Assembly: GCA_021463145.1 (NCBI GenBank)
Contig: JAJTWZ010000001.1
Coordinates: 62,001 to 126,000, forward strand
Length of the DNA stretch: 64,000 nt
Direction: 5' to 3'
DNA from: Blastocatellia bacterium
GTDB taxonomy: Bacteria > Acidobacteriota > Blastocatellia > UBA7656 > JADIYM01
Of the stretch, positions 41,180 through 44,912 are shown piece after piece (within the stretch, counting starts at the first letter, position 1; each line of letters begins with the position of its first letter). Position numbers and translations under genes: made by a program. The notes under the pieces were generated by a model. The model was not told the DNA's origin. It was given only the letters and a program-made list of their open reading frames with translations, and ran no database searches.

Positions 41180-41211
41180 GCCCGAACCCTCGATAAGGAG
41201 AATCCGAACGA

Positions 41212-41448
41212 ATGAACGTAACCATCGAATACTGCACCGCCTGAAACTACACGCCGCGAGCCGTCAGTTTGACGGACAAGATTCTCGAGACCCTTCGAAC
41301 GGAGGTGAGCAGCCTGAAGCTGATCCCGTCAAAAGGGGGATGCTTCGAAATCTCCGTGGGCGACGAGTTGATCTACTCGAAACTCGACACGGGCGAGTTC
41401 CCGGAGGACGACGCGATTATCGCCAGTCTCCAGGAACGGATTCGGTAG
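41212..41448 (+). CDS. selW: SelW-like (Rdx family) selenoprotein with in-frame TGA read as selenocysteine
   Basis: Reading through one TGA (41242-41244) gives a continuous 78-residue protein with a normal TAG stop. The N-terminus is MNVTIEYC-T-A-U-NYTPRA, so the TGA falls exactly at the second redox position of the C-x-x-U/C motif (Cys8, U11) of Rdx thioredoxin-fold proteins. After the TGA the family pattern continues: NYTPRAVSLTDKIL, then GGCFEISVGDELIYSKLDTG and EFPEDD, matching the SelW G-x-FE-x-x-V...SK...G-x-FP signature. AAGGAG lies 11 nt before the ATG, a promoter lies further upstream, and a hairpin fitting a bacterial SECIS follows the TGA. SelW-like proteins are thiol oxidoreductases of uncertain substrate. 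A pseudogene is the alternative, but the TGA position, the hairpin and the intact frame after it argue against that. The Sec machinery (selA, selB, selC, selD) must lie elsewhere. Confidence 0.9.
41261..41275 (+). promoter_or_regulatory. SECIS-like hairpin directly after the selenocysteine TGA
   Basis: CCGTCA pairs perfectly with TGACGG (6 bp) around a 3-nt GTT loop. The stem starts 16 nt after the TGA, and the loop G is 22 nt after it. Bacterial SECIS elements are short hairpins at about this distance with a G at the start of the apical loop, which SelB recognises. A further 4-bp pairing (CGAG at 41257-41260 with CTCG at 41284-41287) could extend the stem beyond an asymmetric bulge. Confidence 0.75.
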
Positions 41449-41469
41449 CTTCAACTCCCGGCACATCGG

Positions 41470-41502
41470 AGCCCCGGCCGGCCTTCGTGGCGGGCCGGGA
41501 CT
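41470..41502. terminator. Strong hairpin between convergent selenoprotein and hypothetical genes
   Basis: Arms 41470-41479 and 41493-41502 pair with one mismatch (AGCCCCGGCC against GGCCGGGACT). After a single G-G mismatch, three further pairs close a TTCGT loop. It lies between two converging genes and probably ends both transcripts. There is no long T-tract on either side, so factor-assisted or bidirectional action is an inference. Confidence 0.55.
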
Positions 41503-41526
41503 CGTAACCGATACCCGCTTCCTTCT

Positions 41527-41853
41527 TCACCACAAAGACCCGCCCTCGGCCATTGTGGCGTTCCAGAACTCGATGAACGCTTCCCGGATCGGCTCAACCT
41601 GCAGAATGGAACGCTGCCGAAGATAGATGCAGTGGTCGCTGCCCGACTCGTCGTCGGCTTCGTTCTTGGAGTATTCGGGCCGGTCTACGTCTTCCTCCTC
41701 GCCGTCAAGCCACCTCACGTAATCGAACTTCAGGAACTCGTCGCCGGGCCGATCGAATATGGCTTCTTTCGGATCGCCGTCCACGCGCCCTACGAAGTGA
41801 TAGAGCCCCTCGCCTCGCGCTTCGTACGTGACCCGCACCCACGTTCCCGGCAT
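41527..41853 (-). CDS. Small acidic hypothetical protein
   Basis: This 108-residue frame has credible protein composition but no recognised family. It begins with a beta-rich section (GTWVRVTYEARGEGLYHFVGRV) that resembles a small barrel. A strongly acidic patch follows (WLDGEEEDVDRPEYS), then a helix-rich C-terminus (PIREAFIEFWNATMAEGG). There is no signal peptide or membrane helix, so it is probably cytoplasmic. The start at 41853 is the only Met at the beginning; a Shine-Dalgarno sequence is weak. It is divergent from the IPT-repeat gene and converges on the selenoprotein gene. Its codon use resembles its neighbours, which supports a real gene. Confidence 0.6.
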   Translation of the reverse strand: MPGTWVRVTYEARGEGLYHFVGRVDGDPKEAIFDRPGDEFLKFDYVRWLDGEEEDVDRPEYSKNEADDESGSDHCIYLRQRSILQVEPIREAFIEFWNATMAEGGSLW

Positions 41854-41889: not shown

Positions 41890-41919
41890 TTGCGATTCGG
41901 GGAACCGCCACGATACTAT
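41890..41919 (+). promoter_or_regulatory. Possible promoter of the IPT-repeat gene
   Basis: TTGCGA (41890-41895) is followed after 18 nt by TACTAT (41914-41919). The complementary strand reads TAGTAT over nearly the same bases, toward the divergent hypothetical gene, so this -10 is also close to symmetric. The predicted leader to the ATG at 41985 is about 60 nt. Confidence 0.4.
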
Positions 41920-41984
41920 TGCGGTTTAACCGGCGCAAGCAGTGCTTCTGCCGGGACTTTCAGCATTCGAGACTACAGAATTCG

Positions 41985-44912
41985 ATGACCAGACTAACTG
42001 AAGTGACGCGCTCGCACGCACCACGCCGGCTGCTCTCCCTCGCCGTAGCGGGCGCCCTTGCAAGTACCTTGGTCGTCTCGTCGGCGATCGTTCCGGCCCT
42101 CGCGCAGAAGCGGCTAGAGGTTACCCTGCCCGAAGGAACGATCCTCGAAGCGGGCACGCAGCCTGCGCTTTCACTCGACGGGCAGTTCGGCTTCGTGGCT
42201 CCGGCCAGGGGCGATTCGATCGTCGTATTCGCCGTGCGCACTGGCGAGATCGTAGCGCGAATCCCTGAGCTCGGGCCCGCGATGGGCATCTCGCTTCACG
42301 ATGACGGTATCAGGCGGTTGCTCGTTGCAACGTTCGACGCGGATGTCGCCGAAGCCATTCCGGCGTCGGTGCGAGTATTCGACGTCACGGACGTGCAGAA
42401 CATTAAGCCGGTCTCGACCTTCAAACTTCCGGAGTCGACGATTCCGGCGCAGGGAGCCAGAGCCGAGATCGCGCGATCCGGAAAGTCGGCCTGCATCGCC
42501 ATAACCCTGCCGGTCCCCGCGCTTCTTTCCTTCGATCTCGAAACTGGCCAGCAGCTTGGTGCGATTACACTCGACGGACCTTGCGACAAGGTCTCGACCG
42601 TCGACGTCAAGGACGAAACGCGAATTGCGGTTCTCAGCGTGGAGACGAACAAGGTCTCGATCGTCAGCCTGAACGACCTCGGCGTCCTGCTGCCGGTCTC
42701 TGCGTTCGAGCCACCTGCCGATGCTCCGTTGAGCGCCGCCAACAACGTGGTGTTCGACGCAACGGGCAAGCTGGGCTACGTGGCCTCCGTGAAGGGCCGT
42801 GCATTGATGAGTTTCTCGGTCGAGTCGGGCGAACTGATCGACAGGCTCGATACGGACGGATCTTCGGGACGGATTTCGATCTATCACGAGCCCGACCGTG
42901 ACGTGCTCGCGGTCGTAAATCTCTCGCGTCCTGGGGGCAGGGACGGCATCGTCGAGCCGGAGGCCGCAAGCCCATTCGGCATGCCGTCTGCGATGGTAGC
43001 CTTGGCCACCCCCGAAGGACGGCTCAGTTTTCAGTCGCGCTTCTATCCGGAAACGGGCGACGAGATCACCCCATCCAACAATCCGGGATTTTCGGCTGAC
43101 GGCCGCTCAATCCTCGTTCCGGTGCGAACTGGCGCCCTCTATGTTGTCGATTCCGCAACCGGGTCAGCCAGGGCAAAGGAGTCGTTCGAAGGGCGTGTCC
43201 AGTCGATCGCGCCGGCGCCTCTCGCCGAAGCCGTCACCGTAGTAACGTCCGGGGGCGATCGGGGCCGTCTCGAGATCGTGCCCCTCTCGGCCGCGGCGCC
43301 GACCGCCGCCGAACCGGAGGTGGTTGAGTCGCCGGGCGATGAAAACTCCGGTGAGGACTCCAGAGACGAACGCCACAAGTCCCGCAAGAAGGAAGCTGAC
43401 AAGATTTCGGCGCCCACCATCGACAGGTTGAGTCCGGGGACGATTCAGGTTGGCCGGCGCCGCGATCTTCCGATCACGATAGTGGGAAGTGGCTTTGGGC
43501 CTGGCGCGGTTGTCCTGGCGGATGGTGACGTTTTCTCGGCTGAGGTCAGCCGCAACGCGAAGCGGGTGAACTTCACCATCACGGCCTCGAAACTGACCAC
43601 GGCCCGATCTATTCCAGTCCAGATTCGCAACCCTGACGGCACGCTTTCTAATTCGTTGGATCTACAGGTGGTGCCGCCCTTCGTTCCGCTGCTGCAGAAG
43701 GTATCGCCGTCGACGATCGATTCCGGAAGTGGAGGCGTAGACATCAACCTCCGCGGCGATCACTTCCGCGATGGAGCCCTGGCGAAGGCCTCGTACACCG
43801 ATTCTAGCGGTGCCGTGCAGGTCGTCGATCTCCGAACCTATCGAATTTCATTCACGCAGATCATCGCGCGACTGCCCTACAAGCTGACGACTCGAGCCCG
43901 GACGCTCAGTATCTCGATAATCGACCGCGACGGCGCAACGATATCTCAGGTGCTGCCGGTCATCGTCGCGGGGCCCTCGATAGCCGGTCTTACGCCCGAT
44001 CGTTTCGTCGCGGGCGCTCTCAAGGCCGACGAATCCCTCACCGTTCAGATCGAAGGGAACAACTTTCACCGCGACGCTGTTGTCTACGTGAAGCGGCCCG
44101 TACGTGGCGACAGCGAACCGGCGGTCTACCGGCAGCTACCCTCCACTGCCGTGAAGTGGCGAAAATCCACACGAATGGCGATTCGCCTGTCTCCAAGCGA
44201 TGTTTCCCTGACCGGAGGCCTGTTTGTCCGCGTGATCAATCCGGTGCGTGGCGAACGCCGGCGAAACGGAGACGGCGCGGATGCGGCCTTTACGGTGGCA
44301 GGACCGAACGTGGAGTCGTCGTCGCCGGAGGCGATAATTGCCGGCACCGAGAACTTCGTTCTCAAGCTCATAGGAACGGATTTCCGGCGTGGCGCCGTCG
44401 TAAAGCTCACGCGGCGGGACGGAACCGGAGAGGTTACAAAACGCGTAACGGTCGAAGACGCGGACGTCAAGGATCGCAAACGTATAAACATCCACATGGA
44501 CACGCCCGACCTTCTCAGGCTGATCGCGCGTCCAGGCGAGATCACTGTTCGGGTCGTCAATCCCGGCTCCGCCCGCGGTGACGTGGCGCCTACGCTGACC
44601 ATCGATGTTCTCGCGCCTGCGATCGCGACTTACGAACTGCTGCCTCGCGCCGGCGACCCTGACGAATACGCATTGAGACTTACAGGCACGAACTTCCGTG
44701 AAGGAGCGATGGTTCAACTGCTCGACTCCGGAGGGACCGAAGTTGGGCGTCCGCACGACATCCGGTTCAAGGACTCGACCCAGATCGTGGTTTCGCTCTC
44801 CCGAAAGCGGTTGTCCGAACTCCGGACCTTCAAAGTGGTGGTGATCAACCCGGGCGGCACGTACAACGGTAGCGGCGTAAGGTCCAATCCGCTCGACGTA
44901 GCCGTGAACTGA
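41985..44912 (+). CDS. Large exported protein with propeller-like N-terminus and multiple IPT/TIG repeats
   Basis: This is a 975-residue protein. The ATG at 41985 begins a signal peptide with a basic start (MTRLTEVTRSHAPRRLL) that ends near PALAQKR; an upstream TTG would add 22 implausible residues. Residues about 40-430 look like a YVTN/WD-type beta-propeller (GQFGFVAPARGDSIVVFAVR, NNVVFDATGKLGYVASVKG). A charged linker (RDERHKSRKKEADK) leads to about five IPT/TIG-type beta-sandwich repeats, each opening with a short P-x-I-x-x-L-S/T-P pattern and containing I-x-G-x-x-F-x-x-G-A (SPGTIQVGRRRDLPI, VGSGFGPGAVV, LRGDHFRDGA, EGNNFHRDAV, IGTDFRRGAVV, TGTNFREGAMV). The function is unknown; adhesion or surface binding is typical for the fold. 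The next gene follows after 1 nt. Confidence 0.85.
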   Translation: MTRLTEVTRSHAPRRLLSLAVAGALASTLVVSSAIVPALAQKRLEVTLPEGTILEAGTQPALSLDGQFGFVAPARGDSIVVFAVRTGEIVARIPELGPAMGISLHDDGIRRLLVATFDADVAEAIPASVRVFDVTDVQNIKPVSTFKLPESTIPAQGARAEIARSGKSACIAITLPVPALLSFDLETGQQLGAITLDGPCDKVSTVDVKDETRIAVLSVETNKVSIVSLNDLGVLLPVSAFEPPADAPLSAANNVVFDATGKLGYVASVKGRALMSFSVESGELIDRLDTDGSSGRISIYHEPDRDVLAVVNLSRPGGRDGIVEPEAASPFGMPSAMVALATPEGRLSFQSRFYPETGDEITPSNNPGFSADGRSILVPVRTGALYVVDSATGSARAKESFEGRVQSIAPAPLAEAVTVVTSGGDRGRLEIVPLSAAAPTAAEPEVVESPGDENSGEDSRDERHKSRKKEADKISAPTIDRLSPGTIQVGRRRDLPITIVGSGFGPGAVVLADGDVFSAEVSRNAKRVNFTITASKLTTARSIPVQIRNPDGTLSNSLDLQVVPPFVPLLQKVSPSTIDSGSGGVDINLRGDHFRDGALAKASYTDSSGAVQVVDLRTYRISFTQIIARLPYKLTTRARTLSISIIDRDGATISQVLPVIVAGPSIAGLTPDRFVAGALKADESLTVQIEGNNFHRDAVVYVKRPVRGDSEPAVYRQLPSTAVKWRKSTRMAIRLSPSDVSLTGGLFVRVINPVRGERRRNGDGADAAFTVAGPNVESSSPEAIIAGTENFVLKLIGTDFRRGAVVKLTRRDGTGEVTKRVTVEDADVKDRKRINIHMDTPDLLRLIARPGEITVRVVNPGSARGDVAPTLTIDVLAPAIATYELLPRAGDPDEYALRLTGTNFREGAMVQLLDSGGTEVGRPHDIRFKDSTQIVVSLSRKRLSELRTFKVVVINPGGTYNGSGVRSNPLDVAVN

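Follow-up and report, generated by a model that had tools for sequence, protein, structure and literature searches.

A 237-bp gene on the forward strand of the stretch of DNA analysed here (64,000 nucleotides, hereafter the window) very probably codes for a small selenoprotein of the SelW/Rdx (SelT/W/H) family, with a thioredoxin fold and with selenocysteine (Sec) inserted at an in-frame TGA by means of a bSECIS hairpin. We give this explanation as a whole, Sec insertion in vivo included, a probability of about 97%, as judged from sequence comparison, with the fold and the redox function taken from the family. The features of the locus are the following:

41195..41200, + strand: Shine-Dalgarno-like AAGGAG, 11 nt 5' of the ATG
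41212..41448, + strand: predicted selW-like gene for a 78-aa selenoprotein, with the TGA as Sec codon and TAG as stop
41233..41244, + strand: redox motif C8-T-A-U11, with the putative Sec codon TGA at 41242-41244, from an alignment of 48 homologous sequences
41261..41275, + strand: bSECIS hairpin CCGUC-AGUUU-GACGG, from folding and from covariation against a synonymous-codon null; it fits the published model
41469..41502, + strand: G+C-rich hairpin 3' of the stop, lacking a T run, from a fold of 41449-41510

Reading frame and family assignment

Re-reading of the sequence reproduces exactly the frame of the original prediction, which runs from the ATG (41212-41214) across the TGA at codon 11 (41242-41244) and through 67 more codons to the TAG (41446-41448). 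The AAGGAG that it had seen is likewise present at 41195-41200, and a purine-rich Shine-Dalgarno sequence stands at the same place in many relatives in the homologue alignment. Its promoter-like boxes found no support, since a consensus scan of the upstream region gave no sigma-70-like promoter on the forward strand and a single match on the reverse one. Past the stop, the scan found no canonical terminator; the G+C-rich hairpin located there (-30.1 kcal/mol and z -2.1 for 41449-41510) is a possible 3' end of the transcript. An Rfam scan of the selW locus returned nothing relevant.

Concerning the family, the Pfam Rdx profile (PF10262) matches the 78-aa translation with 77.2 bits (E=1.2e-21, cut-off 22.6) over its positions 1-72 of 74, the match spanning the TGA, and TIGR02174 (CXXU_selWTH) matches with 64.1 bits (cut-off 34.2). 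The protein hence displays the features by which SelW/Rdx (SelT/W/H) members are recognized, namely a full-length Rdx domain above the curated cut-off and an N-terminal CxxU. The motifs NYTPRA, GGCFEISV and YSKLDTGEFP, on which the assignment had originally been based, are all in the translation, and the TGA does fall on the redox position of a C-x-x-U motif, C8-T-A-U11. NF041051 (SelTWH_Campy, SelT/SelW/SelH family (seleno)protein) aligns over positions 1-69 of 70 with 81.6 bits, below its equivalog cut-off of 88 bits. A six-frame Rdx search of the 5.28-Mb genome yields the selW locus as its only match (E=1.9e-18). The nearest relative found, from the same class (L036), shares 63% identity, and a Planctomycetota protein (L050) 55%.

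With the SelW-like prokaryotic selenoproteins (PF10262, TIGR02174) the window protein shares its size, the CxxU, the GG-x-F-E and FP motifs, the TGA-encoded Sec and a bSECIS located 3' of the TGA, and no difference of substance was seen. Cys-type Rdx proteins of solved structure, among them 3dex_A (SAV_2001, E=3e-13) and 2fa8_A (Atu0228, E=2e-11), have the same domain but carry Cys where the window protein would have Sec.

Conservation of the TGA and covariation of the hairpin

The alignment comprises 48 sequences including the window gene. The window's own genome and others of its phylum contribute 30 of them, and public contigs assigned to Planctomycetota, Bacillota, Poribacteria, Thermodesulfobacteriota, Gemmatimonadota and one unclassified bin the remaining 18. 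At the codon-11 column TGA is found in 40 sequences, Cys in 8 and any other residue in none, so that the TGA aligns with Cys or Sec of relatives, as is required of a bacterial selenoprotein; this is also the comparison that had been proposed as a check of residue 11. The 8 Cys forms build a single clade, corresponding to one inferred Sec/Cys change in a quick tree that is weakly resolved with its 78 columns. Within the phylum, the Cys-type SelW clade (L021-L028) has at its C terminus a conserved extension, APGRDLGHSDR, which is absent from the Sec forms.

Downstream of the TGA, comparison with the nearest relative gives dN 0.30 and dS 1.34, and six comparisons give dN 0.30-0.53 with dS either about 1.1-1.5 or saturated. 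Values of dS well above dN indicate that this part of the protein is under purifying selection. Random decay after the TGA in close relatives, which the original prediction had named as an observation that would speak against it, is not what the alignment shows, the residues there being conserved.

The published description of bSECIS elements asks for a loop of 3-9 nt, a stem of 4-16 bp, a G as first or second loop base, a distance of 16-37 nt from the UGA and a minimum free energy (MFE) of -7.5 kcal/mol or lower (PMC13188914). The window hairpin agrees with all of these, with a 5-bp stem, a 5-nt loop (AGUUU) starting 21 nt after the UGA, a G at loop position 2 and -7.8 kcal/mol over 41 nt; a further A-U pair is closed inside the loop in the MFE form, while the centroid keeps the 5-nt loop. 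Taken as a single sequence it is not clearly more stable than shuffled versions (z -0.9 to -0.5), and the structural support therefore comes from covariation.

To this end the null was built from 2000 synonymous-codon resamplings, weighted by the third-position G+C of each gene. All five stem pairs form in 30 of the 40 Sec sequences, against a null mean of 5.0 +/- 2 with a maximum of 11, and 186 of 200 stem cells are paired, against 142.5 +/- 4.5 with a maximum of 156. Partners in register give 4.65 pairs per sequence, compared with 1.2-2.8 when they are slid. Several pairs change on both sides (CG/TA/GC), as seen in the stem variants CTGCG-AGTTT-CGCAG of Bacillota and GGCC-AGTCT-GGCC or CCGCC-GGTCT-GGCGG of others. 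None of the 8 Cys genes has all five pairs. In two Sec sequences (L034 and L045) this stem is broken and a shifted one, CAGAC-CGTGA-GTCTG, can form. The G at loop position 2 occurs in 40 of 40 Sec sequences, but also in the 8 Cys genes, and is by itself not diagnostic. The covarying hairpin supports programmed Sec insertion as a line of evidence additional to the TGA column.

In the mechanism we propose, the ribosome would reach the UGA at codon 11, SelB carrying Sec-tRNA(Sec) would bind the hairpin just downstream, and selenocysteine would go in at the UGA in place of termination, the C-x-x-U pair acting presumably as a reversible selenenylsulfide redox centre.

Selenocysteine machinery and the weighing of other readings

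Profile searches of the same genome, probably a metagenome assembly (173 contigs, 5.28 Mb), identified selA (557.6 bits, 462-aa ORF), selB (337.7 bits, 633-aa ORF), selD (340.3 bits) and a tRNA-Sec gene, selC, with anticodon TCA (74.3 bits), which is called by ARAGORN as well. These four genes, whose joint presence in one genome is expected for a bacterial selenoprotein, are the ones that the original prediction had proposed to look for, stating that absence of selB and selC would refute it; both are there. As a control, selA exceeded the cut-off in only 1 of 14 control genomes. An oppositely oriented tRNA-Ala lies 142 bp away from the tRNA-Sec gene (L002:1497-1594), which also overlaps a mechanically called ORF, DprA-like, at the 5' end of the latter; the true dprA start is probably located after the tRNA-Sec gene.

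The selD gene (L018:1492-2613, G000:C96) is itself a selenoprotein gene, with an in-frame TGA in MVSCAGU, SCAGU being what we take as the known Sec site of SelD, and an otherwise intact frame. A formate dehydrogenase alpha gene (L068; G000:C110:28973-30247, reverse strand) and a BCP-type peroxiredoxin gene (L078; G000:C7:8751-9122, reverse strand) have one in-frame TGA each, in CNRTU and TPGU respectively, which presumably correspond to the known Sec positions of these families. The usual N-terminal Fe-S region of the former was sought in three frames directly upstream and none was seen; the gene may be truncated, rearranged or misassembled. As sampled by family searches, the genome thus has at least four selenoprotein genes, selW included, and appears to decode UGA as Sec.

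These data bear on two other explanations of the TGA. Since a single substitution separates it from TGC or TGT, it could have arisen by an error of sequencing, or by a nonsense mutation that turned a Cys-type SelW gene into a pseudogene. However, the same TGA appears in 39 independently sequenced relatives, which already refutes such a reading, and the purifying selection on the frame behind it, the covarying hairpin 3' of it and the full Sec machinery stand against it too; we reject it as extremely improbable. Alternatively, the codon might specify an amino acid other than Sec, such as Trp or Gly under codes 4 or 25, or there might be plain suppression, and a frame open under TGA as Trp would look alike. 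Nevertheless, the residue aligned in relatives lacking the TGA is always Cys, the in-frame TGAs met when this genome was searched by family sit only at known Sec sites, with none in the other matches, and the genome has a tRNA-Sec whose anticodon is TCA. Reading as Trp is rejected on these grounds, and we consider decoding as any other residue, or suppression, to have hardly any probability. Selenocysteine insertion, as originally proposed, is accordingly the reading that the conserved TGA column, the covarying bSECIS and the complete machinery most strongly suggest.

A different matter is whether Sec, once inserted, serves mainly selenium handling or signalling instead of general thiol redox chemistry. 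For bacterial SelW-like proteins no physiological partner is known to have been settled, and the genes around selW suggest no particular role (see below). A CxxU motif in a thioredoxin-like family, however, usually denotes a redox protein, and Cys replacements occur in the family; we regard a main role in selenium handling or signalling as rather unlikely.

Distribution and genomic context

SelW-like proteins were already among the bacterial selenoprotein families by 2006, Cys homologues being few or lacking in organisms that use Sec, when four selenoproteins were counted in Acidobacteria (PMC1794560), and in the ocean metagenomes of 2008 they were the most numerous prokaryotic selenoprotein family, with 427 Sec against 56 Cys forms (PMC2398784). 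The latter counts, as well as the 40 TGA and 8 Cys sequences aligned here, are in line with the earlier statement that prokaryotic SelW-like proteins occur with either residue. The finding is thus real and very probably read correctly, but ordinary in kind, as Sec-containing SelW-like proteins are known from many bacteria. Its interest lies in offering a clear, well-supported case of a gene that automatic annotation would end after codon 10; of the 298 selenoprotein genes known in the test genomes of one study, no more than 195 were correctly annotated (PMC12013277).

Across the phylum, 115 of 396 genomes have an Rdx match, with an in-frame TGA in 105 of them (counted from tables). A selA gene is found in 98 of these 105 genomes and in 154 of the 291 others (Fisher p=1.7e-15, a value overstated because related species are not independent); four of the 7 genomes with a TGA-containing SelW and no selA match are 64-75% complete. 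Rdx is absent from the seven other genomes of the window's own order, the gene being therefore patchy. A chlorosome CsmA-family protein occurs in three genomes of the same class, as fits Chloracidobacterium, and the window comes probably from the class Blastocatellia of the Acidobacteriota. It seems doubtful to us that the phylum at large has Sec-type SelW as its normal form, perhaps largely unannotated, and uses it for a specific, undescribed selenium-dependent redox step.

In the window, selW is flanked by a cyclophilin gene upstream and a 108-aa ORF downstream, both on the other strand. The closest relative used for comparing context (L080) appears to have different neighbours, no conserved neighbourhood being seen between the two, and the context gives hence no functional hint. 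The 108-aa ORF (41527-41853, reverse strand) has no Pfam match, nor does a 997-aa ORF beyond it (41919-44912, forward strand), whose second half shows by eye repeated IPT/TIG-like segments, preceded by an apparent beta-propeller half.
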